From: Acrocarpospora catenulata
GTDB taxonomy: Bacteria; Actinomycetota; Actinomycetes; Streptosporangiales; Streptosporangiaceae
Direction of reading: 5' to 3'
Length of the DNA stretch: 44,705 nt
Assembly (NCBI RefSeq): GCF_018476525.1
Contig: NZ_JAHCST010000074.1
Location: forward strand, 1 to 44,705
In this document: positions 20,864-32,394 of the stretch, in pieces
Position numbering within the stretch: the first letter of the stretch is position 1
Layout of the letters: every line of letters starts with the position of its first letter
Translations under genes and position numbers: made by a program
The notes under the pieces: model-generated
Databases searched by the model: none
Seen by the model: the letters and a program-made list of their open reading frames with translations, nothing else
Told to the model about the DNA's origin: nothing

Positions 20864-21598
20864 GTGACCCCCCTGCGAGCGTTCTGGAACCACCTGACCG
20901 CGACCCAGCCCGCGCCGCCGCTCTGGCTGGTCGGCGTGGCGGCCCTGCTGGCGCTGGTGCTGGTCGGGTACCGGCCCGCCTGGCACCTGTCACGCGGAGT
21001 GATCACGATCGCCCACGAAGGCGGGCACGCGCTGGCGGCGGTGCTTTCCCGGCGGAAACTACGCGGCATCCGGCTCCACTCGGACACCTCCGGCGTGACC
21101 CTGACCAGAGGAAATCCGACCGGCCCCGGAATGATCATCACCGCGGCGGCCGGGTACGTGGCGCCGTCGCTGGTGGGAGTGGGCGCGGCGTGGCTGACCT
21201 CGGCCGGGTACGTGCGGGTGCTGCTGTGGGGCGTGCTGGTCCTGCTCGCCTGCATGCTGCTGCTGATCAGGAACATGTTCGGCGTGGTCTCGCTGCTCGC
21301 GGTGGGCGGGGCGGTGTTCGCGGTCTCCTGGTTCGCCCAGGACGACGTTCAGGGTTTCGTCGCGTACGGGGCCGCCTGGTTTCTGATGCTCGGCGGAGTC
21401 CGGCCGATCCTGGAGTTGCAGGGGAAGCGGCGGCGCGGGCGGGCGCCGGATTCCGACGCCGACCAGCTGGCGCGGCTGACCCGGATCCCCGGAGCGTTCT
21501 GGGTGATGCTCTTCCTGCTGGTCGCGGTGGCCGCCCTCGGATTAGGGGGTTACCTGCTGGTTCAGTCGGAGCTCGGGACATTGTTGGAGCCCAGGTAG
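20864..21598 (+). CDS. M50-type membrane metallopeptidase
   Basis: 244 residues with about six hydrophobic segments. The zinc motif HEGGH (residues 51-55, in ITIAHEGGHALAAVLSRR) lies just after the first membrane segment, as in M50 site-2-type proteases and their DUF-like actinobacterial relatives. The usual second NPDG/LDG motif is not evident, so proteolysis is likely but not certain. The start is ambiguous. GTG 20864 overlaps the ribosome binding site GGGAGG (20859-20864), and CTG 20873 would have better spacing. The condensin-like operon starts 46 bases downstream on the same strand, so cotranscription is possible. I would not treat a shared function as established. Confidence 0.85.
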   Translation: MTPLRAFWNHLTATQPAPPLWLVGVAALLALVLVGYRPAWHLSRGVITIAHEGGHALAAVLSRRKLRGIRLHSDTSGVTLTRGNPTGPGMIITAAAGYVAPSLVGVGAAWLTSAGYVRVLLWGVLVLLACMLLLIRNMFGVVSLLAVGGAVFAVSWFAQDDVQGFVAYGAAWFLMLGGVRPILELQGKRRRGRAPDSDADQLARLTRIPGAFWVMLFLLVAVAALGLGGYLLVQSELGTLLEPR

Positions 21599-21644: not shown

Positions 21645-22844
21645 GTGCTTGAGGAGACGCTGGACGCGGCGCTGACCGACGAGGCGGTGCTGGTCACCTA
21701 CCGGAGGATGTTCGCCGCGCTGGCCAGGGACAGCGGGGCCGTGGTGGACGATCCGGCGCTGGTGGACATCGCCGAGACGCTCTTCGCGGCGTTCGCCGCG
21801 GCGGGCGAGGAGTGGCTGACCCACGAGCAGATGCGCCACGCCTGCCGCGCCTACCCCGCCGACCTGTTCGAGAACCGGCTCCGCGTGCTGCGCGGCCTGG
21901 GCGCGGTGCGGGAGGTGTTCCCCAAGCCCAACCAGTTACGCTACCGGGCCTCGTTCACCTCGGTGGTCGGGCTGATGTTCATCCGGCGCATGATGGACGA
22001 CGGCGGCCAGAGCGAGATGCACCGGCTGCTCGCCCTGGAGGACCTGAACGCCGCCGATCCGCGCACCACGATGGAGCAGGCGCGGCAGTCGGCGCAGAAC
22101 CTGGCGCGGGCGTTCCGGCTCTGGGCGCTGGAACTGATCACGCTGACCACCGGGACCATCGAGGAGCTGCGCGAGCAGGCTCCCAAACTCTGGGGCACCG
22201 CGGAGATCACCCGGCGGGCGCAGAGCCTGCACGGCACCATCCTCGGCCGCTGGCCCGCCCTGGACCGCACCTGCACCGAGCTGCGGACCGCCATCCACGC
22301 CTACAGCGACGCCTCCCGGCGGGCGGCCGGGCGGCTGGCCGACTCGGCGGGCACCACCCGGAACCTGACCCTGCTCCCGGCCGAGACCTGGCGGACCTTC
22401 GCGCAGACCGCGACCAGGGAACGGCTGGCCGCCGTGCTGGACGGTTTCGCCTTCGACGCCGCCGCGCCCTGGCACGACCCGGCCGCGATCGCCCAGGCCG
22501 TCGACGAAGCCCCGCGCCCCACGCCGGTCCGCCCCGCCCCGCCCCGCTCTCCCCTGCCGGACGCGGGCCCCGCCAGTAGGTACGATCCGGTGCAGGCCGA
22601 CCTGGACCGCCTCATCGCCGTGGCCGAACGTGCCCTCGCGGGCCGCGCCGAGGCCCCGCTCGGCGAACTCCTCGTCAACGACTGGCCCGCCATCCGCCGC
22701 CTCCTGGCCGACCTCACCTCCGCCGACCTGCGCCCGGAACTCCCCTACCGCCTCCGCTGGTCCGACACCCTCACCGCCCGCCCGCAGGGCCATCCCAGCT
22801 GGCTGTCCCACGGAACCCTGGAGAGGCGCTCCCCTGATGCCTGA
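21645..22844 (+). CDS. Kleisin-like (MukF/MksF/JetA-like) subunit of a condensin-type operon
   Basis: 399 residues; no family recognised directly. The N-terminal part (about 1-110) looks like a winged helix (WLTHEQMRHACRAYPADLF, RLRVLRGLGAVREVF). Long helices rich in Ala, Gln and Glu follow (about 130-270). A Pro-rich break comes at about 285-310, and a final small helical domain (about 315-390) follows. That order (winged helix, helical neck, flexible linker, C-terminal domain) is the plan of MukF/MksF and of Wadjet JetA. Position supports it, since the gene overlaps the next by eight bases and that one overlaps an SMC-like ATPase gene. GTG 21645 follows GGTAGGG. The kleisin assignment is inference and needs structure comparison. 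Confidence 0.5.
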   Translation: MLEETLDAALTDEAVLVTYRRMFAALARDSGAVVDDPALVDIAETLFAAFAAAGEEWLTHEQMRHACRAYPADLFENRLRVLRGLGAVREVFPKPNQLRYRASFTSVVGLMFIRRMMDDGGQSEMHRLLALEDLNAADPRTTMEQARQSAQNLARAFRLWALELITLTTGTIEELREQAPKLWGTAEITRRAQSLHGTILGRWPALDRTCTELRTAIHAYSDASRRAAGRLADSAGTTRNLTLLPAETWRTFAQTATRERLAAVLDGFAFDAAAPWHDPAAIAQAVDEAPRPTPVRPAPPRSPLPDAGPASRYDPVQADLDRLIAVAERALAGRAEAPLGELLVNDWPAIRRLLADLTSADLRPELPYRLRWSDTLTARPQGHPSWLSHGTLERRSPDA

Positions 22845-24099
22845 GCAAGCACATGTCGCGGCCCGCAGGTCGGGCGTGCTCCGGGTGCCGGCGTCGGAGC
22901 GGGTCCCGCCGGGTTTCGTACGGCTTTCGCAGGGCGATTCGGCCGTGGCGCTCCCCCAGTGGCCGGACGGGGCCACGCCGTCCCTGCTGGAGGAGTACCA
23001 GCTGGCGCCGTTCCCGGTCGAGCGGGCCGGGGAGACCCGGCGCATGCTGGCGGCCTGCCTGCGGGTCTGCTGGCAGGACCTGTCCGCCGACCCCTGGCCC
23101 GGGGTCGCCGTTCCCGCCGAGCAGGCGCTCTCCTGCTACCGGGCGCTGACCGGACGTACCGACGACACCACGCGCAGCTGGTCCATCGGCGCCCTGCGCC
23201 GCCTGAACGAGACCGGCTGGATCAGCCTGGGCGTGCCCGCCGACGGTAACTGGTCGGATCTGCGCCCCGGCAGGGGCCGCCTTGACCTCGCGGGCGCCTT
23301 CGTCCGCCTCGGGCCGCGCTGCGCCCTCTGGCCGGCCGACTCCCACGCCCAGCTCCGCGACGTCGTCCGCCGCATACCGCCGCCCGCCCCCACCGGCGAG
23401 ACGGGGGTGCCGCTGACGGGCCTTCGGGAAGAGGGCGCCAGGGATCTGGAGGATCTCCTGGGCGGGTACGACGAGCGGCGGCGGGCCGAACTGGTCGCCG
23501 CCTTCATGGCGGTGGAACACGCGGCCGAGCCGGTGCCGGAGGCCCGCTTCACGGCCCTGCGCGATCCGGCGCTCCGGCGCACCCTCGCCGAGATGCTGGA
23601 ACGCCGGGGCCGCACGCTCATCCAGCGCCGGGACACCTGGATCTCGGGGTACCGCGACGGTCTGTCCGGGGGTGACGCGTCCGACGCCGGGCGCCTGGGC
23701 GAGGGCGAGCGGGCAGTGCTGACCCTGGTGCTGGTGCATTCGGTGGCGATCCCCCGGGCCGACGGGCTGCTGGGCGAGGACACCTGGCTCTCGCCGTACC
23801 CGGTGGCGGTAGAGGAGCTGCGCAGGCGCACGCTGCTGCCGATCGGCGAGTTGGACGCCGCCCTCCGCACGCTCCGCCAGTGCGGCCTGCTCACCCAGGT
23901 CAAGAGCGCGGAGGAGACCGGCGGCGGTTACGTCCCCGGCCCGCAGTTCCACCGGCTCACCCAGGCCGCCAGAGCCCGCCTCCAGGAGGAACTGATCCTG
24001 GCCGCCGGGCCGCACACGCCGCTGGCCGTGGCGATCCGCTCCCGAAGATCGACCCGCCCGCTCCCCACCGAACCATCAGCTCCAGGAGGAACCGAGTGA
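22837..24099 (+). CDS. Winged-helix (MukE/MksE/JetB-like) subunit of a condensin-type operon
   Basis: 420 residues, no family recognised by motif. It begins MPEQAHVAARRSGVLRVP and has no membrane segments. At least two winged-helix-like units can be read: one around SIGALRRLNETGWISLGV (about residues 108-126) and one near the C-terminus, ELDAALRTLRQCGLLTQ (about 336-352), followed by a beta wing and QFHRLTQAARARLQ. A tandem winged-helix protein between a kleisin-like and an SMC-like gene is the KITE (MukE/MksE/JetB) arrangement. At about 420 residues it is larger than the MukE and JetB proteins that I recall. ATG 22837 lies inside the previous gene, overlapping by eight bases, and the SMC gene starts at the stop (GTGA). 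Assignment is inference. Confidence 0.5.
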   Translation: MPEQAHVAARRSGVLRVPASERVPPGFVRLSQGDSAVALPQWPDGATPSLLEEYQLAPFPVERAGETRRMLAACLRVCWQDLSADPWPGVAVPAEQALSCYRALTGRTDDTTRSWSIGALRRLNETGWISLGVPADGNWSDLRPGRGRLDLAGAFVRLGPRCALWPADSHAQLRDVVRRIPPPAPTGETGVPLTGLREEGARDLEDLLGGYDERRRAELVAAFMAVEHAAEPVPEARFTALRDPALRRTLAEMLERRGRTLIQRRDTWISGYRDGLSGGDASDAGRLGEGERAVLTLVLVHSVAIPRADGLLGEDTWLSPYPVAVEELRRRTLLPIGELDAALRTLRQCGLLTQVKSAEETGGGYVPGPQFHRLTQAARARLQEELILAAGPHTPLAVAIRSRRSTRPLPTEPSAPGGTE

Positions 24100-27000
24100 C
24101 CGGCGACATGACCGGCGAAGTGACGGGCGACGCGGCGGCTCAGACGGCGGCTCAGACGGCGGCTCAGACGGCGGCTCAGACGGCGGCTCAGACGGCGGGC
24201 GGACAGGACGGGTTCCTGGTGGTGGCCGCGGCGGCCGAGCCTGCATCCGCGCCGTCATCTGCGCCGGCGTCCGCAGAGGCGGCGGAGGCCGGGCCGCGGG
24301 TGCCCGCCGGTCCTGTCGAGAACGTGGTGGGCGACCGGGTGCTGATCGCGGTGCAGGCGGTCAACATCTCTCGATTGTCGACCCACCCGGTGCCCACCGT
24401 GCCAGGGACGTTGATCGTGGTGGCGGGAGCCGGGCCGAAGGACTCCAACGGGGCCGGGAAGTCCTCGTTCATCGCGGCGATCACCGCCCTGCTCGGGGAC
24501 GAGCAGTGGCGGTTCGCGTCCGGCGCCAAGGCCGTGTCCGAGCTGCTGTTCAACGCCGAGCTGGCGGCCCACGGCGACCAGCAGTGGGCCAGCGCCGACC
24601 ACGGCTACATCGTGGGCGTCTTCGACGTGCCCTCGGTGGGGTTGCCGGTCACCGTGTGGCTGCGGGTCAACCAGGAGGCGCCCCACCTGGAGATCCGGTG
24701 GACCGAGGGCGTGCGCCTGGCCACCGCCGCCTCCGAGGCCGACCGGGTGACCAGGGCCGACGACATCTGGGCCGAGCTGCCGAAGAGCGCCGGCCGCCGC
24801 GACGTGGTCGCCCGCGACCTGACCCGTGTCCTGTACGGGGACCGGGTGCGCTGCGTGTCGTTCCTGTCCACCTCGGTCCGCAGCAAGGTCGCCACCAACC
24901 TGCTCTCCCAGCCGCTCAACGAGATCTCCCCGGAGCGCATCTTCGAGGCCATCGCCGCGCTGACCGGCCTGGACGCCGAACTCGACCAGGAGCGCGAAGC
25001 CCGGCGGGACGAGCACGGCAAGCTCGTCCGGGCCGCCCAGGCCGAGGGGCGGCTGCGCGAGTTCGAGGCCGAGTCGGCCGCGCTGCTGGCCGTGTTCGAC
25101 CGGCGGGACCAGGCCAGGGAGCGGCTGGCCGAGGCGCTGCACAGCTGGCGCGGCCGCCTGGCCAGGCGCCTGGTGGACGCCGCCGACCGCGACGCGGAGC
25201 TGGCCGCCGAGCTGGCCGCCCACGAGGACACGGCGGAGACCGCCGCCGAGGCCGCCGCCGCCGTGAAGAACGAGATCCTGGCACTGAAGGACGACACACT
25301 CGACCGCGCCCTGGCGGCGGCCCGCCGGGAGCTGGCCGCCGCCCAGGCCCGTGCGGGCAAGCTGGAGACCGAACGGGCGGTCGCTCAGAACACGGCGGAC
25401 GAGCTCCGCGCCCAGATCCCGGCCCTGGAGAACCTCCGCCGCCAGGCCGACGGCCGGGACGTGCCCACCGCGCAGGCCGAGCTCACCGCCGCCCGACGGC
25501 ACCTCACCGAGGCGCTCAAAGCCCAGGGCGTGGCCGACCGCGAGACCGAAACCGCCCGCTCCGCCCTCCAGGACGCCGAGAACGGCCCCGCCGCCGCCCA
25601 GCTCCGCGCGCTGGCCGCCGCGGGCCTGACCGGCGCCAGCCTGCTGGACACCCTCGCGGTCGCCGAACACGCCCGCCCCGCCGACCTCCCGGCCCCGATG
25701 CGCGACGGCTGGCCCCAGGAGTCCGCGATCATCGTGGACGCCCGGGACATGACCCCCGCCGCCGAGGCGCTGCGCGACCTTCCCGGGTCGGTCGTGGTGA
25801 GCCCCGCCGGGGTGACCGTGGTCGGCGTGGCCGAGGAGGCCGTCACCGGACGCGACGCCAGGATCAAGGCGGCCGAGCAGCGGCTCAGCCGCGCCCTGGA
25901 CGCCCAGGAACTGGCGGCGCAGGCCGTCCGGCAGGCGGAGGACGGCGTGGCCACGGCCGAACGCCGCCTGGAGGGCGCCACCGCCGCGATCCGCCTGACC
26001 GAGATCGAGGCCCGGATCACCGCCCAGCGCGACCGGCTGACCACCCTGCGGACCGCCCTCGACGACCTGACGCCGATCCTCGACGCCGCCGAACAGGAGG
26101 TGGCCACCCTGGACTTCCGGGCCCGGACCAGGAACCTGGAGGTCGAACGCCTGGAGTCCCGCCGCCAGCACATGGAATCCGAACGCGCCCAGGCCAAGGC
26201 CCTGGCGTCCCAGGTGACCGCCGAACGCGACGCCCTGGACCTCCCCGGTCTGGCCAGAGACTGGGGCGGCACCCTCGAGAGCACCCGCAGAGCCACGACC
26301 TCCAGAGGCCACCGCAACTCCGCGGTCCCCCACTCCGCAGTCCCCCACTCCGCGGTCCCCCACGACTCCGCGACCCCCCACGACTCCGTGACCCAGCATG
26401 ACCCGGCGGACCACCACGAGACGGGAGCCGTCGCGAGCGCGCGTGCCTGGCTGGCCGAGGCCGACACCCTCACCGCCGACGAATGGTGGCGCGGCGCCGA
26501 ACGTCTCCTGGACAGCGCCCTGCGCGGCACCTTCGCCGACGGCGACGAGATCGCCGAGGAGCTCGACTTCCTGATCAAGGAAAGGCGCGGCGGCCGGACG
26601 GCCCAGGAACTCGCCACCTTCCCGGCCCTCTGCGCCGCCCTGGCGTCCTACCTGCGCGCCCAGGAGGACTACGAACGCCACCAGCGCCTGCAGATCGAGA
26701 CCCAGATCCTCTCCAGGCGCCGCGACCTGGCCGCCGCCACCAAGGGCGCCGAGGAGGCCGCCCAATCCACCGCCGTCCACCGCGCGGCCCTGACCGAGGC
26801 CATCAAGGTGCGCCTCGCCCGGGTCGCCGAGGAGTTCGAGAAACTCGACACCGGTTACGGCGGCTACGGCGCCACCCTGGAGTTCCCCGTCCCCGCCGCC
26901 CCCGCCGACCCCGAACAGCGCTGGGCCTGGCGGGTCATCCCCAAATGGCGCCGCGGCGAAGGCCAGGGCTACGTCCCCTACAACCGCCGCGCCAACACCG

Positions 27001-27392
27001 CCCTGATGGACGAGAAGGCCGTCAAACTCGTCTGCGCCGCCGCCATCGCCTCCTCCGGCGGCGGCCACCTCACCCTGGTCCTGGACGAACTGGGCCGCAA
27101 CCTCGGCAAGGAACACCGCCGCGAAGCCGTGGCCCTGTTCCGCCGAATCGGCGAAACCCACGGCATCACCGTGATCGGCGCCCTCCAGGACGACATGGAG
27201 CCCTACGCCATCGACGCCTGCGGCCAGTACATCAAACTCCGCCGCTCCTCCGACACCATGCCCTACAACGAACCCCCGATCATCCTCGCCCACGACCGCC
27301 ACTCCGAACGAATCCGCCTCCTGTCCACCTCGATCACCCGCCCGCATCCCCAACCGCCCCCCGAGACGACCGCTGAAGCCAGTTGGGCGTGA
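24096..27392 (+). CDS. SMC/MukB-like coiled-coil ATPase of a condensin-type operon
   Basis: 1098 residues. A low-complexity N-terminus (five AAQT repeats, residues 14-33) precedes the head, with Walker A GPKDSNGAGKSS at residues 113-124. Long coiled coils rich in Ala, Glu and Arg flank a globular, hinge-like part (about 500-585, AIIVDARDMTPAAEAL). The second coil is interrupted by a HSAVP-type repeat (about 742-768). The C-terminal head has Walker B HLTLVLDELGRNLG (about 991-1004) and a switch-like ALQDDMEPY. Where SMC proteins carry LSGGE the sequence reads NTALMDEKAVKLV, so the signature is degenerate. GTG 24096 follows AGGAGGAACCGA and overlaps the previous stop by four bases. The closest comparison is MksB or Wadjet JetC; RecF/SbcC-like relatives are the alternative. 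Confidence 0.88.
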   Translation: MTGDMTGEVTGDAAAQTAAQTAAQTAAQTAAQTAGGQDGFLVVAAAAEPASAPSSAPASAEAAEAGPRVPAGPVENVVGDRVLIAVQAVNISRLSTHPVPTVPGTLIVVAGAGPKDSNGAGKSSFIAAITALLGDEQWRFASGAKAVSELLFNAELAAHGDQQWASADHGYIVGVFDVPSVGLPVTVWLRVNQEAPHLEIRWTEGVRLATAASEADRVTRADDIWAELPKSAGRRDVVARDLTRVLYGDRVRCVSFLSTSVRSKVATNLLSQPLNEISPERIFEAIAALTGLDAELDQEREARRDEHGKLVRAAQAEGRLREFEAESAALLAVFDRRDQARERLAEALHSWRGRLARRLVDAADRDAELAAELAAHEDTAETAAEAAAAVKNEILALKDDTLDRALAAARRELAAAQARAGKLETERAVAQNTADELRAQIPALENLRRQADGRDVPTAQAELTAARRHLTEALKAQGVADRETETARSALQDAENGPAAAQLRALAAAGLTGASLLDTLAVAEHARPADLPAPMRDGWPQESAIIVDARDMTPAAEALRDLPGSVVVSPAGVTVVGVAEEAVTGRDARIKAAEQRLSRALDAQELAAQAVRQAEDGVATAERRLEGATAAIRLTEIEARITAQRDRLTTLRTALDDLTPILDAAEQEVATLDFRARTRNLEVERLESRRQHMESERAQAKALASQVTAERDALDLPGLARDWGGTLESTRRATTSRGHRNSAVPHSAVPHSAVPHDSATPHDSVTQHDPADHHETGAVASARAWLAEADTLTADEWWRGAERLLDSALRGTFADGDEIAEELDFLIKERRGGRTAQELATFPALCAALASYLRAQEDYERHQRLQIETQILSRRRDLAAATKGAEEAAQSTAVHRAALTEAIKVRLARVAEEFEKLDTGYGGYGATLEFPVPAAPADPEQRWAWRVIPKWRRGEGQGYVPYNRRANTALMDEKAVKLVCAAAIASSGGGHLTLVLDELGRNLGKEHRREAVALFRRIGETHGITVIGALQDDMEPYAIDACGQYIKLRRSSDTMPYNEPPIILAHDRHSERIRLLSTSITRPHPQPPPETTAEASWA
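24135..24194 (+). repeat. 12-base tandem repeat (AAQT) in the SMC-like gene
   Basis: Five exact copies of GCGGCTCAGACG encode AAQT five times at residues 14-33 of the SMC-like ATPase, before the conserved head. Exact copies imply recent slippage, so copy number may vary between strains. Each unit is a multiple of three, so changes keep the frame. Confidence 0.95.
26319..26399 (+). repeat. SAVPH-type tandem repeat in the second coiled coil of the SMC-like gene
   Basis: Three 15-base units encode SAVPH. Two 18-base relatives encode DSATPH and DSVTQH. The block interrupts the second coiled coil of the ATPase and is rich in Pro and His, so it should form a flexible break in the arm. Confidence 0.85.
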
Positions 27393-27565: not shown

Positions 27566-30500
27566 TCAAGCTGGTCTGAGCGTCGAGCCGGTGCGGGTCT
27601 TGCGGACCTGGAGTTGGGTGGGGATGCGGATGCGGAGTTCGGCGACGTGGCTGACGATGCCGACGGAGCGGCCGCCGGTGCGGAGGGTGTCGAGGATGTT
27701 GAGGACGTCGTCGAGGGTGTCCTCGTCCAGGGTGCCGAAGCCTTCGTCGACGAAGAGGGTGCCGATTTCGGTGCCGCCGGCTTCGGCGGTGACGACGTCG
27801 GCGAGGCCGAGGGCCAGGGCCAGGGAGGTGATGAAGCTTTCGCCGCCGGAGAGGGTGGCGGGGTCGCGGTCGATGCCGGTCCAGGCGTCCAGGACGCGCA
27901 GGCCGAGTCCGCCGCCCGCGCGGGTGCGGGAGCCCGCGGTGCGGCGTTTGTCGTACTGGAGGAGGTAGCGGCCGCCCGACATGTGGGTGAGGCGGTCGTT
28001 GGCGGCGTCCACGACCTGGCGGAGGCGCTCGCCCAGCACGTACGCGGAGAGCGGCATGTCCCACCGGTTGTCGGTGGAGTTGCCGTTGGTGAGTTCGGCC
28101 ATGCGTCTGGCGAGGCGGTGGCGGTGTTCGGCGGGGCGGAGGGCCTCGACGGCGGTGGCCAGTTCGGCGGCGAGGGCGGTGAGGCGGTCGTGCCGGTGGC
28201 GGGCCTGGTCGCGGGCCGAGGCGCGGTCCTCGTGTTCCTGCTCGGCGCGGGCGCGCTCGGCGGCGAGTGCCGTCAGGTCGGGGACGGGTTCGGCGACGGC
28301 GGCCAGGAGTTCGGGGTCGGCCAGCAGGGCCGTGACGGCGGCGTACTCGTCGCGGAGGAAGGTGAGGCGTTCGCTCATCGCCGTGCGGTCGGCGTCGGTG
28401 CGGACGGCGGCGCGGGCGTCCTCGATGCCGCCGAAACCGGCGTCGAGGGTGGCACGCCGGGCCAGGTCGCGGGCGTTGTCCCGTTCGGCGGCGGCAGCGG
28501 TCGCCTCACGTAGCGCGGTGGCGGCCTGCTGGAGCGCGGTGGCCTCGTCGGTGAGGCGGCGGACCCTGGCGGTGAGGGTGGCGTCGTCGCCCCGGGCCTG
28601 GTCGATGATCTCCGACAGCCGGGTGTCCTCGGCCGCCAGTTGGGCGGCTCTGGTGCGCGCGGTGGCGAGTTCGATGTCGTTGCGGCTGCCGCGTTCGGCG
28701 AGTTCGGTGAGTTCGGTGGTGAGCCGGGCCGTCTCCTGCGCGCCGGACTCCTCGTCGGCGGCGGCGAGCCGCAGGCGGGACAGTTCGGCGGCGGCCTCCC
28801 GCAGGTCTGCCGCGGCGGCGTCCTCGGTGCGGTCGTCGGGGACCGTGCCGCGCAGGTCGTCGTACTTGGCCTGGACGGCGTCGGTTTGGGCGACCGCGTC
28901 GAGGGCGGCGGCGAGCAGGGCGGCTTCGTGGACGATCCGGTCGCGGCGGCCGGCCACGGTGGGGTGCCCGGCCCTGGCGTCGTCCAGGCGGGCGGTGATC
29001 CTGGACTGCTCGTCGTGCAGGCTCCGTTCGTGGGCGCGCAGCTCGGCCAGGGTGGTGCGCAGGTCTTCCGCGCGTTCCCTGGCGGCGTCGCGGGCGACGG
29101 TGAGCTCGTCGACCCTGGTGGCGAGGGCGGTTTCCGGTTCCGCGGCGGCCGTCAGCCGGGTGAGCGTGGACTCGCCCTCGGCGACGGCGGTTTCCGCGTC
29201 GGCGACGGTCAGGCCGTCCGCCCGGTCGGTGGCCTCCTCCAGACGGGCGGCGAGGGCGGCGGCCTCGGATTCGGCGGCTTCCCTGACGCGTTGCGCCGCG
29301 TCGGCCTCGGCCTGGGCCTCTTCCTCGTCCTCAGCGGTGGGCGCGCCGATTCCGGGCTCGGCCGGCGAGGGATGGTCGTCGGAGCCGCAGACCATGCAGG
29401 GCTCCCCCGAGGCCAGGTTGGCCGCCAGTTCGGCGGCCATGCCGTCGATCCGCGTCTGCCGTACGGTGAGCAGCCGGTCGAGGGCGGCCTGGGCCTGGTC
29501 GGTCGCGGCTCGGCGTGCCTCATCGGCGGCGGCCGACTCCGCCACGAGTTCGTCCCGCCGCAGGGCCGCCTCGAACCGCTCCCGCGCGGTGCGGCAGGCC
29601 GCCTCGGCGACCGGGATCTCCGCCGCCGCGGCTCTGGCCTGCTGCAGGCCGGCTTTCGCGGCATCGAGCAGGTCCGGAATCTCCGACACAGACCGGAGCG
29701 CCGTCGCCTCGTCGGCGGCGAGCTTCGTGAGCGAGGCGGCGACCGACTCCGCCTCCGCCTGGACGGCCGCCAGCCGGACCTCCTCCGCCACCAGCTCACC
29801 CAGCCGGGCCGCCTCCTCCCGCCAGGTGCGCTCCCAGGAGGCGACCTGCCCGAGGTCGGGATCCGGCGCGAAGGGCCGGATGGCGGCCAGGGAACTCTCC
29901 CTGAGCTCGACGGCCTCGGCCAGGGCGGCGGCGAGAGTGTCGCGGCGGCGGACGGCGGTCAGGGTGGACTCGGCCGCGCGAACGGCCGCCTCGGCCCCCG
30001 GTAAGGCCGCCTTGGAGAGGCGGGCGTGGGACAGGCGGGATTCGGCCTCCTTGAGCTCGACCGGGAGCACGGCGAGCCGGTCGGTGATCTCGCTCTGGAT
30101 CTTCTCCATCGCGACGATGTCATGGCCGGTCCGATCCCGATCGGCGCGGAGCTGCGCGAGCCGGGACTCCTCGGGCCGGAGCTGCTCGATCCGGGCGATC
30201 TCGTCGCGGCGTTCCTGTTCGAGCGCGGTCAGCTCGGGGGGAGACGCCGCGAGTGAACCGGGCAGGTTCCCGGACGAGCCGAGCCTGGACAGGGCCTGGG
30301 TGGCGTGGTCGTCAGCCAGTTCGGCGGCGGCGGTCCGGGCGTCGTACTGCTGGATCAGGGGCAGCACCCGGTCGGCGTTGGCCGCTTCGGTGAGGAAGGT
30401 CTCCAGGTCAGAGCGTTCCTCGGCGGTGTTCTCCAGCTCGTCGCGGCGGATCAGGGCGGCGGCGTGGCGTTTCTGGCGGTCGGCCAGGTTCTGGGCGCCC

Positions 30501-31306
30501 TCGAGGCGAGTTCGCGCCTCGCGCAGGGCCGTCTCGCCGGCCGTACAGGAGGCGGCGGTTTCGGAGGCGGCGGTGGCCGCGGTGGCGAGCAGGGCGGCGG
30601 ACCAGCCGAGCGGGTCGTCGCCGAGGTCGGCGACGGGCAGGTCACCGGCGGCGCCGTGCATCCTGTTGGCGGCGGCCGCCACGTTCCCGCGCAGGGCGTC
30701 CTCAGCGCGGCCGGTCACGCGGCGGTGCTCGGCGAGCCACTTCTCGACCTCGGTGTAGAGGCGTACGGAGAAGAGACGTTCGAGGAGTTTGCGGCGGTCG
30801 TCACCGTCGGCGCGGAGGAAGCGCGCGAACTCGCCCTGGGGCAACATGGCGACCTGGGCGAACTGGTCGTGGTTCATGCCGAGCAGGCCGCCGATCAGAT
30901 CCCCGGCCTCGTCCAGCCGGGTGGTGAGGGCGACCCAGTCGTGCCGGAGCTCCTCCAGCACGACCTTGGCGTTCTCCTGGACCGTGCCCTGGCCCCGCAG
31001 CTTCGGCCGCGACCAGGACGGGGAACGCTGGATGCGCAGCCGCCGCCCCCGGATGGTGGCCTCCAGCAGCACCTCAGGCCCCCGGCCGGGCGGCGCGTGG
31101 TCGCAGCGGAGGGTGCGGGCGCTGTTGCGCAGGCCGGGCACCATGCCGTACAGGGCGAAGCAGACCGCGTCCAGGACGGTGGTCTTCCCGGCGCCGGTGG
31201 GCCCGTGGATGAGGAACAGGCCCGCCTCGCCGAGCGCGTCGAAGTCGACCTCCTCGACGCCGGGGAAGGACCCGAAGGCGGTCATCCGCAGCCGGTGCAG
31301 CCTCAC
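27566..31306 (-). CDS. sbcC: Exonuclease SbcCD, ATPase subunit SbcC
   Basis: 1246 residues, normal for actinobacterial SbcC. The N-terminal head has FGSFPGVEEVDFDAL and Walker A HGPTGAGKTTVLDAV. Long coiled coils run to a zinc hook, with Cys 637 and Cys 640 in EPCMVCGSDDHP, and back. The C-terminal head has the signature TLSGGESFITSLALAL and Walker B TLFVDEGFGTLDED. With SbcD it forms the Mre11/Rad50-type complex that cleaves hairpins and blocked DNA ends. Translation starts at GTG 31306, overlapping the sbcD stop as GTGA. It converges on the condensin-like operon with about 170 bases between; that gap contains a short GC hairpin (27412-27426) but no gene that I can support. Confidence 0.96.
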   Translation of the reverse strand: MRLHRLRMTAFGSFPGVEEVDFDALGEAGLFLIHGPTGAGKTTVLDAVCFALYGMVPGLRNSARTLRCDHAPPGRGPEVLLEATIRGRRLRIQRSPSWSRPKLRGQGTVQENAKVVLEELRHDWVALTTRLDEAGDLIGGLLGMNHDQFAQVAMLPQGEFARFLRADGDDRRKLLERLFSVRLYTEVEKWLAEHRRVTGRAEDALRGNVAAAANRMHGAAGDLPVADLGDDPLGWSAALLATAATAASETAASCTAGETALREARTRLEGAQNLADRQKRHAAALIRRDELENTAEERSDLETFLTEAANADRVLPLIQQYDARTAAAELADDHATQALSRLGSSGNLPGSLAASPPELTALEQERRDEIARIEQLRPEESRLAQLRADRDRTGHDIVAMEKIQSEITDRLAVLPVELKEAESRLSHARLSKAALPGAEAAVRAAESTLTAVRRRDTLAAALAEAVELRESSLAAIRPFAPDPDLGQVASWERTWREEAARLGELVAEEVRLAAVQAEAESVAASLTKLAADEATALRSVSEIPDLLDAAKAGLQQARAAAAEIPVAEAACRTARERFEAALRRDELVAESAAADEARRAATDQAQAALDRLLTVRQTRIDGMAAELAANLASGEPCMVCGSDDHPSPAEPGIGAPTAEDEEEAQAEADAAQRVREAAESEAAALAARLEEATDRADGLTVADAETAVAEGESTLTRLTAAAEPETALATRVDELTVARDAARERAEDLRTTLAELRAHERSLHDEQSRITARLDDARAGHPTVAGRRDRIVHEAALLAAALDAVAQTDAVQAKYDDLRGTVPDDRTEDAAAADLREAAAELSRLRLAAADEESGAQETARLTTELTELAERGSRNDIELATARTRAAQLAAEDTRLSEIIDQARGDDATLTARVRRLTDEATALQQAATALREATAAAAERDNARDLARRATLDAGFGGIEDARAAVRTDADRTAMSERLTFLRDEYAAVTALLADPELLAAVAEPVPDLTALAAERARAEQEHEDRASARDQARHRHDRLTALAAELATAVEALRPAEHRHRLARRMAELTNGNSTDNRWDMPLSAYVLGERLRQVVDAANDRLTHMSGGRYLLQYDKRRTAGSRTRAGGGLGLRVLDAWTGIDRDPATLSGGESFITSLALALGLADVVTAEAGGTEIGTLFVDEGFGTLDEDTLDDVLNILDTLRTGGRSVGIVSHVAELRIRIPTQLQVRKTRTGSTLRPA

Positions 31307-32394
31307 GCGGTGGTCTCCTTGATGCGGTAGGCCATGATCGCTTCTTCCAGCAGCCGCCGTTCCTCGTCGTCGGCGGGCTCGCCCCTGACCTCTCGGACGA
31401 AGTCCAGGGCCACCTCGACGGGCGGGCGCCCGGCGGTCGTCACGGGCGCGGCGGCGGACTCCGCCCCGCCCTCGGGGGCGAACTGGAGGTCCACGGTGTT
31501 GGGGAAGTGTTCCCGCAGGCGTTCCATCGCGGCCTTGGGCCGTACCGGATCGGTGAGGGTGGCCTGGATCCAGTGGTCGCAGGGGTCGCGGGTGAGCAGG
31601 TCGGCGAGGCGGCCGGTGAGCCGGGTGAGCGGGCGCGGCACGGGGGCGGGCACGAACTCGGCGCCCCCGGCGTCCAGATCGACGAGCCAGGAGCCCTTGA
31701 CGTGGCCGGCCTCGGAGAAGGAGTACGCCAGCGGCGACCCCGAGTAGCGCACGGTGTCGCTCATCCGCTGGCGGCCGTGCAGGTGGCCGAGCGCGACGTA
31801 GTCCACCCCGTCGAAGGCGCCGAGCGGCACGTGCGCCACCCCGCCGACGGTGATGTCCCGCTCGCTGTCGCTGGCCTGCCCGCCGGTCACGAACGCGTGC
31901 GCCAGCACCACCTTGCGCTCCCGCCGGTCGGCCCTGATGCGGTCCATGGCATGGGTGATCGCGGCCGTGTGGGTGCGCTCGGCCAGCTCCCAGGGGCCCT
32001 TGACCAGCTCCGGCTCCAGGTACGGAATGCCGTAGAAACCGACGTTGTTGACGACCACGGGCTGCCAGGCCCGACCAGGATCGGTGCGCAGATGCACCCG
32101 ATCCATGAGATCAGCACCGAAACCCAACCGCACCGGGGAGTCATGGTTGCCGCTGATCAGCACGGTGTGCACCCCCAGCGCCCGCAGCCGGGCCAGCGCC
32201 TCGCCGCACAGCGCCACGGCGTCGACCGGCGGCAGAGCGCGGTCGTACACATCGCCGGAGACCACCACCACGTCCACCCGTTCGGCGCGGACCGTGGCGA
32301 CCAGGTGGTCCACGAAGGCCGCCTGGGCGGTCAGCAGGCTCTCCCGGTGGAACGACCGGCCCAGGTGCCAGTCCGACGTGTGCAGCAGCCGCAT
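31303..32394 (-). CDS. sbcD: Exonuclease SbcCD, nuclease subunit SbcD
   Basis: 363 residues of the Mre11/SbcD phosphoesterase family. The manganese-binding motifs appear in order: SDWHLGR at the N-terminus, VVSGDVYDR, and ISGNHDSPVRLGFG. GHLHGRQ follows further on. The C-terminal capping region ends LLEEAIMAYRIKETTA. It is the nuclease partner of SbcC, whose gene follows with a four-base overlap. The start ATG at 32394 is the only one that keeps the first metal ligand. The 119 bases upstream separate it from a divergent hydrolase gene. Confidence 0.96.
   Translation of the reverse strand: MRLLHTSDWHLGRSFHRESLLTAQAAFVDHLVATVRAERVDVVVVSGDVYDRALPPVDAVALCGEALARLRALGVHTVLISGNHDSPVRLGFGADLMDRVHLRTDPGRAWQPVVVNNVGFYGIPYLEPELVKGPWELAERTHTAAITHAMDRIRADRRERKVVLAHAFVTGGQASDSERDITVGGVAHVPLGAFDGVDYVALGHLHGRQRMSDTVRYSGSPLAYSFSEAGHVKGSWLVDLDAGGAEFVPAPVPRPLTRLTGRLADLLTRDPCDHWIQATLTDPVRPKAAMERLREHFPNTVDLQFAPEGGAESAAAPVTTAGRPPVEVALDFVREVRGEPADDEERRLLEEAIMAYRIKETTA

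Follow-up and report, generated by a model that had tools for sequence, protein, structure and literature searches.

What does a condensin-like motor of the Wadjet kind do when no nuclease is encoded in its operon? The question is raised by a three-gene operon of Acrocarpospora catenulata located in a stretch of 44,705 nucleotides (hereafter, the window), which is one contig (NZ_JAHCST010000074.1) of a 10.3-Mb actinomycete genome in 181 contigs (assembly GCF_018476525.1). All three genes lie on the plus strand: gene 1 (positions 21645 to 22844, GTG start, 399 amino acids [aa]) encodes a kleisin-like protein of the MukF/MksF/JetA kind, gene 2 (22837 to 24099, ATG start, 420 aa) a fusion of two parts denoted 2a and 2b, and gene 3 (24096 to 27392, GTG start, 1098 aa) a coiled-coil ATP-binding cassette (ABC) ATPase resembling structural maintenance of chromosomes (SMC) proteins, in the position of JetC/MukB/MksB. 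The reading that we favor, with a probability of about 0.58, is that the operon belongs to a divergent, unnamed Wadjet-like system that lost its effector several times and kept its motor, likely as a chromosomal condensin. The initial annotation, made from the DNA alone, had proposed a possible JetABC/MksBEF-like condensin of divergent subtype without a nuclease subunit, its genes coupled by overlaps of 8 bases (genes 1 and 2) and 4 bases (genes 2 and 3). The coordinates and overlaps proved exact, the trio is conserved together, and the proposal as a whole is supported by the folds of the gene 1 and gene 2 products and by relatives that carry a JetD-type nuclease gene.

The motor is identified by its ATPase motifs. 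Walker A lies in the AGAGPKDSNGAGKSS region (24429 to 24467, plus strand; Lys at residue 122, alignment A1), and Walker B with the D-loop in the LVLDELGRNLGKEHRRE region (27066 to 27116, plus strand). Both motifs (DSNGAGKSS and LDELG) are conserved in all 69 aligned rows, with Walker A reading DSNESGKTS in the two outgroup rows. By its position, the segment NTALMDEKA (26994 to 27020, plus strand) is probably a degenerate ABC signature motif in place of the usual SGGE; NTA with close variants occupies this position in 67 of the 69 rows, the exceptions being NSAREKLFT in locus L058 and NTAQEKLFS in locus L022. The Walker motifs lie near both ends of the protein, and arms poor in Gly and Pro flank a middle region richer in these residues, a pattern compatible with a hinge between coiled coils. 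Gene 3 thus has the motifs of an SMC ATPase such as JetC, and no JetC model matches the window protein. In Pfam, it scores below the cut-offs with SMC_N (12.9 bits) and AAA_23 (12.7 bits), and it reaches 18.3 bits against SMC_prok (TIGR02168), for which the cut-off is 567.35. A search of the gene 3 profile against Protein Data Bank (PDB) sequences gave an ABC transporter ATPase as the best match (E = 0.0017), followed mostly by coiled coils. No SbcC, Rad50, or RecN model scored above its cut-off for gene 3, whereas the neighboring true SbcC matched the SbcC family with E = 4.7e-78. Two stretches of tandem repeats occur within gene 3, a 12-base unit repeated 5.5 times near the N-terminus (24133 to 24198) and 15- and 18-base units in the C-terminal arm (26317 to 26394); the latter are missing or different in the relatives in alignment A1.

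The AlphaFold model of the gene 1 product (m75fdd601628e; 70 sequences; mean predicted local distance difference test score [pLDDT] 69.4, predicted TM-score 0.36) divides the protein (21645 to 22844, plus strand) into an N-terminal winged helix, a helical stretch, a disordered Pro-rich linker, and a C-terminal winged-helix-like domain. The top Foldseek match of this model was the MukBEF chain 9gm7_C (440 aa, E = 2.8e-4), which is MukF judging by the size of the chain, followed at ranks 2 to 4 by a chain of Wadjet-II JetABC (9qe1_E, 0.018) and two MukE-MukF chains (3euh_B, 0.027, and 3rpu_B, 0.046). The kleisin expected in the JetA position is therefore matched, with a weak model, by fold similarity to MukF and to a Wadjet-II JetABC chain.

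Gene 2 yielded a better model (m29eface5a261, whole gene 2, 94 sequences, mean pLDDT 84.6), built from alignment A6, in which 94 of 119 rows were chosen so that MAFFT kept 2a rows off 2b. The N-terminal half, 2a (residues ~1 to 192; 22837 to 23412, plus strand), is a separate gene in most relatives and appears to contain a winged-helix-like part, judging by the secondary structure (DSSP) of the model; the C-terminal half, 2b (residues ~197 to 420; 23425 to 24099, plus strand), comprises two winged-helix-like units of the KITE type according to AlphaFold and Foldseek. ScpB, JetB, and MukE are KITE proteins. The best Foldseek matches were ScpB (6juv_A, E = 1.7e-4) and a Wadjet-II JetABC chain (9qe0_D, 4.2e-3), with ScpAB entries at ranks 5, 6, and 8, ScpB 2z99 at rank 9, and, further down, an E. 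coli JetABC chain (8as8_C, 0.052) and a MukE-MukF chain (3euh_D, 0.099); the subunit identity of the Wadjet chains in these lists is not labeled in the Foldseek output. From the elements of the model, we infer that the KITE match is located in 2b. Gene 2 thus corresponds by fold to the KITE subunit JetB. The architecture that the initial annotation had read from the sequence, namely, a winged helix, long helices, and a C-terminal domain in protein 1, winged-helix-like units in protein 2, and an SMC-like ATPase with both Walker motifs in protein 3, is borne out by these results; neither of the first two proteins resembles an unrelated enzyme, with the caveat of the weak gene 1 model, and the third matches no SbcC or RecN model above the cut-off.

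The two parts of gene 2 are encoded apart at 67 of 80 named loci (defined below), fused at 8, and undecidable at 5; in L026, L029, and L031, they are separate open reading frames that overlap by 4 bases (GTGA). In the gene 3 tree, the window groups with the six named fused rows retained, and the split L029 branches at the base of this group, which fits a single fusion in the lineage of the window. In L022, a divergent second copy, 2a and 2b are fused as well. The possibility that 2a and 2b are paralogs was dropped: a hidden Markov model of 2a touched 2b weakly at a few loci, yet hhalign gave 0.8% for the pair. At one Kribbella locus (L092, 8051 to 9953), ~1.9 kb separate 2b from gene 3, unlike in the relatives.

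None of the three proteins reached a Pfam or NCBIfam cut-off, although the same searches recognized the neighbors SbcC, SbcD, a CorA transporter, and an M50B peptidase, and searches of PDB sequences with gene 1, 2a, and 2b gave nothing meaningful. PADLOC returned weak matches for gene 3 alone (mad3, E = 1.4e-5; LmuB, 0.01), and the Jet families (TIGR02677, TIGR02678, TIGR02680, and the PADLOC Jet models) gave none for genes 1 to 3 of the window at E up to 1. The searches do recognize canonical Wadjet, since a complete canonical Wadjet III (TIGR02677, TIGR02678, TIGR02680, and DUF2399) was found in the same genome (G000:C128; L164:4481-12573), with a JetC whose signature motif is SGGE. Among the titles and abstract starts listed in searches of open-license PMC papers, the part of the literature covered (subscription papers and preprints lie outside this scope), none describes the family of genes 1, 2, and 3.

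The operon is not a chance arrangement, given that its genes have matches in 16 to 18 of 60 genomes including that of the window (gene 3 in 16, gene 2 in 17, and gene 1 in 18, with some of the surplus gene 1 and gene 2 matches being weak or partial). Gene 3 was detected in at least 29 of 394 genomes from the class and at least 3 of 396 from the phylum, counts that include the window genome; these class and phylum searches scored 2 candidates per genome, the Micromonospora search reported below 5, and the searches of the window's genus and of Jiangella all. A scan of 84,980 species, one genome each, yielded 314 stretches encoding a gene 3 relative, from which the best 80 by similarity to L026, not a random sample, were named and compared. 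They come from Nonomuraea and its kin, Actinomadura, Jiangella, Kribbella, Kineosporia, Micromonospora, Actinoplanes, Saccharothrix, Amycolatopsis, and other genera, and the closest named gene 3, from a Microtetraspora, is 75% identical. Lineage labels (for example, Micromon or Pseudonoc) were set by similarity, and the record titles of L093, L114, L115, L120, and L122 give other genera. Gene 1 is recognizable upstream of gene 3 at 74 of the 80 loci and undecidable at 5 (L124, L126, L132, L144, and L153), where gene 3 starts too near the contig end. An Antribacter locus (L083:9983-14367) encodes gene 3 and JetD, with no recognizable gene 1, 2a, or 2b in the 10 kb upstream. A link to phages was sought in viral contigs with the gene 3 alignment and dropped (328 pattern matches, 0 relatives).

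What varies among these loci is the gene behind gene 3: a JetD-type gene at 12 of the 80, a kinase gene at 6, and neither at 62. The JetD-type gene, of ~430 aa, begins inside gene 3, at 3 to 81 bases from its end. Three of these genes were scanned, and they passed the cut-offs of JetD_C (L075, 23.0 against 22) or DUF2399 (L117, 29.3, and L118, 24.0, against 23.4) and also matched the PADLOC JetD models. Glu 298, Asp 345, and Asp 347 (L117 numbering), which we take to be the acidic residues of the Toprim fold, are invariant in 10 of 10 aligned JetD-type rows. JetD also lies behind gene 3 in L058, a distant relative from another class, and upstream in L022, the divergent second copy in genome G004. 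A check against Jet profiles, as proposed with the initial annotation, found no Jet family for genes 1 to 3 and JetD families for the three JetD-type genes scanned. The fourth gene sought among relatives does exist in some of them, and the absence of a JetD-like gene from the window was confirmed.

This absence extends to the window genome, which has no match to JetD model A9 or to JetD_C and whose one DUF2399 protein belongs to its Wadjet III. The operon of the window, in which JetD was looked for and is absent, is therefore not filed as a Wadjet system. In 59 other relatives, the JetD model found nothing in 58; the single match is a 30-residue fragment (E = 2e-5; G007:C124:2909-2998, L154/L165) in a genome that has a nuclease-free operon, and it is perhaps a fossil of a lost nuclease. 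The shortest downstream stretch among the 62 effector-free loci is 741 bases, so an abutting gene would be visible, and model A9, which includes the N-terminal domain shared with the kinase form, found no match in the flanks of these loci. A shared abutting gene specific to effector-free lineages was sought as well, and none was seen.

In the kinase form (L077:7778-9157, L122:13120-14496, L111, L114, L115, and L120), a protein kinase domain is joined to the N-terminal domain of JetD-type proteins (about positions 7 to 202 of the model, E down to 2e-54); in L122, the one kinase scanned, Pkinase matched with 2.5e-27. The kinase gene directly follows gene 3 and precedes a gene of ~350 aa, and the one such protein scanned has no known domain. 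A kinase bearing the same N-terminal domain as JetD implies that the effector is exchangeable. We sought a docking surface among residues kept in effector-bearing rows alone (11 in gene 1, 2 in 2a, 7 in 2b, and 39 in gene 3) and in effector-free rows alone (17, 1, 8, and 20, respectively). Gene 3 leans to the effector-bearing rows, but the rows are not independent, and no site stands out but a pair of Trp residues near the N-terminus of 2a. This WW pair (residues 9 and 10 in L102) is conserved in no fewer than 12 of the 13 effector-bearing rows compared; some effector-free rows have other residues there. In type I Wadjet, an N-terminal motif of JetB contacts JetD, according to an excerpt of PMC10586767, and by analogy the WW pair is a possible docking site.

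The gene 3 tree, rooted on the JetD-bearing L058 and L022, includes 69 of 85 rows, after 16 near-copies or short rows were left out. On this tree, which came from a quick search and has long branches, the "no effector" state requires 7 changes, at least 5 of them forced by starred branches, and a topology that unites the 15 effector-bearing ingroup rows in a single clade is rejected (approximately unbiased test, p-AU 6e-5). Because both outgroups have JetD and the effectors share an N-terminal domain and a place in the operon, repeated loss is the simpler reading, and we infer loss as the direction of change.

The two states also differ in inheritance. A nuclease-free copy is present in 5 of 5 genomes examined of the window's genus (one of them, G004, adds the JetD-bearing L022), and gene 3 occurs in 12 of 12 Jiangella genomes examined; in Micromonospora, the distribution is patchy (at least 18 of 151 genomes, some matches partial). 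The effector state in the latter two genera is taken from 7 named loci each, which are all effector-free in Jiangella and all effector-bearing in Micromonospora (6 with JetD and 1 with a kinase). Flanking genes are common to 72 of 80 effector-free pairs compared with 0 of 11 effector-bearing pairs when gene 3 is 70 to 97% identical (p 1.6e-9, for pairs that are not independent); the respective fractions are 7/43 and 0/19 at 60 to 70% identity and 24/309 and 3/88 at 40 to 60%, and near-identical effector-bearing pairs have flanks in common in 2 of 2 cases. In seven effector-free pairs, the ratio of nonsynonymous to synonymous substitution rates (dN/dS), obtained by simple pairwise counts, ranges from 0.05 to 0.40 and is at most 0.25 in 26 of 28 values. 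As judged from these counts, the effector-free copies are under purifying selection. Presence in all genomes examined of two genera, a mostly stable place, and purifying selection together suggest, indirectly, a role in chromosome compaction or segregation.

Several observations weigh against the favored reading. At the level of sequence, hhalign gave gene 3 only 9.0% against JetC of Wadjet III and 1.1% against E. coli MukB, gene 1 0.4% against JetA-III and 0.18% against MukF, the gene 2 alignment 0.4% against JetB-III, and 2b 1.1% against MukE; the sensitivity of these comparisons is limited, the Wadjet-III profiles having 4 rows and the E. coli profiles 1 row. With no link in sequence (0.2 to 9%), the relation to MukBEF and Wadjet rests on fold, gene order, and JetD. 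From rank 5 onward, the gene 1 matches are mostly generic winged-helix proteins, and the TM-scores of about 0.2, obtained with a weak model, place the match at the level of domains and leave their arrangement unsure; the gene 2 list also holds TFIIIC, RNA polymerase III, and other winged-helix chains, one of them at rank 4. Loss and gain of effectors are indistinguishable from the tree alone, which has no proven root and whose outgroups sit on long branches. Effector-bearing pairs show similar dN/dS (0.04 to 0.28). Effector-free copies occur within Micromonosporaceae too (L110, L113, and L116), so the lack of JetD is not always tied to a core place. Finally, the evidence from defense neighbors is soft. 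In a comparison of 10 of the 12 JetD loci (L083 and L103 left out) with 10 hand-picked effector-free loci, the nearest upstream gene of at least 200 aa had a PADLOC match at E of at most 1e-10 in 5 of 10 versus 0 of 10 cases (p 0.033). Three of the five matches are clear (pPIWI_RE, HEC-05, and type I restriction); the other two (L075 and L102) are SMC-like ATPases whose LmuB/mad3 scores hardly exceed that of the window's SbcC, and without them the contrast falls to 3/10 versus 0/10 (p 0.21). Two of these loci, L075 (3-7192) and L102 (1-7159), together with L103, are distantly related JetD loci with an upstream gene block in common, which in L075 includes an AAA helicase-like protein and an SMC-like ATPase and is possibly an island that moved jointly.

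The complete Wadjet III in the window genome, with its own JetD, could in principle serve in trans, and this counts against a purely chromosomal role. It opens the prospect that the operon still acts in defense, with the JetABC-like motor recognizing plasmid or phage DNA and borrowing a nuclease, for example, the Wadjet III JetD or the neighboring SbcCD; in 11 of the 19 sources compared, sbcC clusters close to the operon. We consider this unlikely: sbcC clustering is confined, among the named loci, to Streptosporangiaceae, and no sbcC or sbcD cluster members were called at Jiangella or Kribbella loci (the Kribbella contigs stop shortly downstream); in two genera, effector-free copies occur throughout the genus, mostly in conserved synteny; where a nuclease gene is present at a named JetD locus, it abuts gene 3 (12 of 12); and no profile match connects the subunits of the operon with those of Wadjet III. 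Slightly less plausible still is a defense role in which the effector was swapped for an unlinked one that the searches do not recognize. The kinase joined to the N-terminal domain of JetD behind gene 3 in six of the 80 relatives speaks for an exchangeable effector, but model A9, which covers this domain, matches nothing in the window genome or the flanks of the 62 effector-free loci, and effector-free lineages have no abutting gene in common.

That gene 3 adjoins sbcCD and has weak, sub-threshold SMC and AAA matches might be taken to indicate a DNA-repair complex, RecN- or SbcC-like, with accessory proteins. This seems very improbable, considering that no SbcC, Rad50, or RecN model recognizes gene 3 above its cut-off when the adjacent SbcC is readily recognized and that kleisin- and KITE-like folds are foreign to SbcCD and RecN. 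Even less credence is due to a decaying remnant of a defense system kept by chance, which the missing nuclease and the low-complexity repeats in gene 3 could evoke; intact ATPase motifs in all 69 rows, dN/dS well below 1, and presence in every genome examined of two genera (5 of 5 and 12 of 12) speak against decay.

Under the reading that we favor, in which the effector was lost and the motor was retained, the operon would encode an SMC-kleisin-KITE complex of the MukBEF/JetABC kind. The kleisin would bridge SMC dimers and carry the fused KITE subunit, and ATP-driven engagement of the heads would presumably move or loop DNA, possibly by loop extrusion. The full form of the system would consist of kleisin, 2a, 2b, SMC, and the Toprim nuclease (JetD); in the lineage of the window, the nuclease would have been lost, 2a and 2b would have been fused later, and the motor would have been kept under selection at a stable chromosomal place. 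Such a motor most likely acts on the cell's own chromosome, in compaction, segregation, or topology control, without destruction of plasmids. A more specific version is offered tentatively, at somewhat less than even odds: the family would be a new subtype of Wadjet, its KITE encoded by two genes and its effectors (Toprim nuclease or protein kinase) exchangeable through one common docking domain, that repeatedly shed its effector in Actinomycetes, the stripped motor being taken over as a core chromosomal condensin. The operon may thus show a defense machine turned into a housekeeping machine and, if so, would be an independent natural case of the step proposed for MukBEF. Because one motor occurs with a nuclease, a kinase, or no effector, with at least five forced changes, this step is open to direct study in close relatives. 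The kinase form further raises the possibility of an SMC complex that signals rather than cuts.

Among the neighbors of the operon, a gene for an M50B-like peptidase (20864 to 21598) stops 46 bases before gene 1 and may share the operon; 7 of the 19 sources compared have it clustered nearby. Downstream, sbcC and sbcD (27566 to 32394, minus strand) are convergent to the operon, so that their proposed position next to it on the other strand stands. At L121 (5617-8934) and nine more Actinomadura loci, a protein of ~1100 aa is encoded beside the operon, mostly downstream; it appears HEAT-repeat-like by eye and had no Pfam match at 1e-5 (L121). In three Kribbella loci (L090, L093, and L143), the operon lies ~1 to 1.3 kb from a 5S rRNA gene. 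The idea that the Kribbella contig ends are chromosome ends was rejected: of the 6 loci searched, 3 have 5S rRNA there, one of them together with the terminal part of a 23S gene, which makes ordinary breaks the probable explanation.

How, then, does the operon compare with known systems? With Wadjet types I to III, it shares the kleisin-KITE-SMC order, kleisin- and KITE-like folds, and, at 12 of the 80 loci, a JetD-type Toprim gene behind the SMC gene; unlike in these types, no Jet model matches, the KITE part is two genes or a fusion, the SMC signature is degenerate, JetD is absent from the window, and there is no effector at 62 of the 80 loci and a kinase instead at 6. With MukBEF of Escherichia coli and nuclease-free MksBEF, it shares a three-gene kleisin-KITE-SMC layout without a nuclease, and MukF is the best fold match of gene 1; it differs in having no detectable sequence homology to MukB, MukF, or MukE, an SMC protein of 1098 aa compared with 1486 aa in MukB, and nuclease-bearing relatives of its own. 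An excerpt of PMC10123090 describes Corynebacterium glutamicum MksBEFG, in which the nuclease is attached to the complex through the kleisin; its MksB, at 1111 aa, is close in length to gene 3. The review PMC10586767 regards it as unresolved how Wadjet is related to other SMC complexes and offers, as speculation, a Wadjet origin of MukBEF.

Smc-ScpAB provides the best fold match of gene 2, ScpB; unlike in that complex, gene 3 falls far below the TIGR02168 cut-off, and the gene 1 fold search gives MukF first. In Smc5/6, Nse1 and Nse3 are two small subunits beside the kleisin, and there are two SMC proteins. The two different small subunits at one kleisin recall 2a and 2b, and the split and fused KITE forms are a bacterial case to set beside Nse1/Nse3; this is a parallel only, given one SMC protein here and no significant mutual profile similarity of 2a and 2b. 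Overall, the architecture of the complex resembles those of MukBEF and JetABC, and, to the extent that sequence can tell, it does not belong to the MukBEF lineage; the operon is most aptly described as the branch without a nuclease of a new Wadjet-like subtype.

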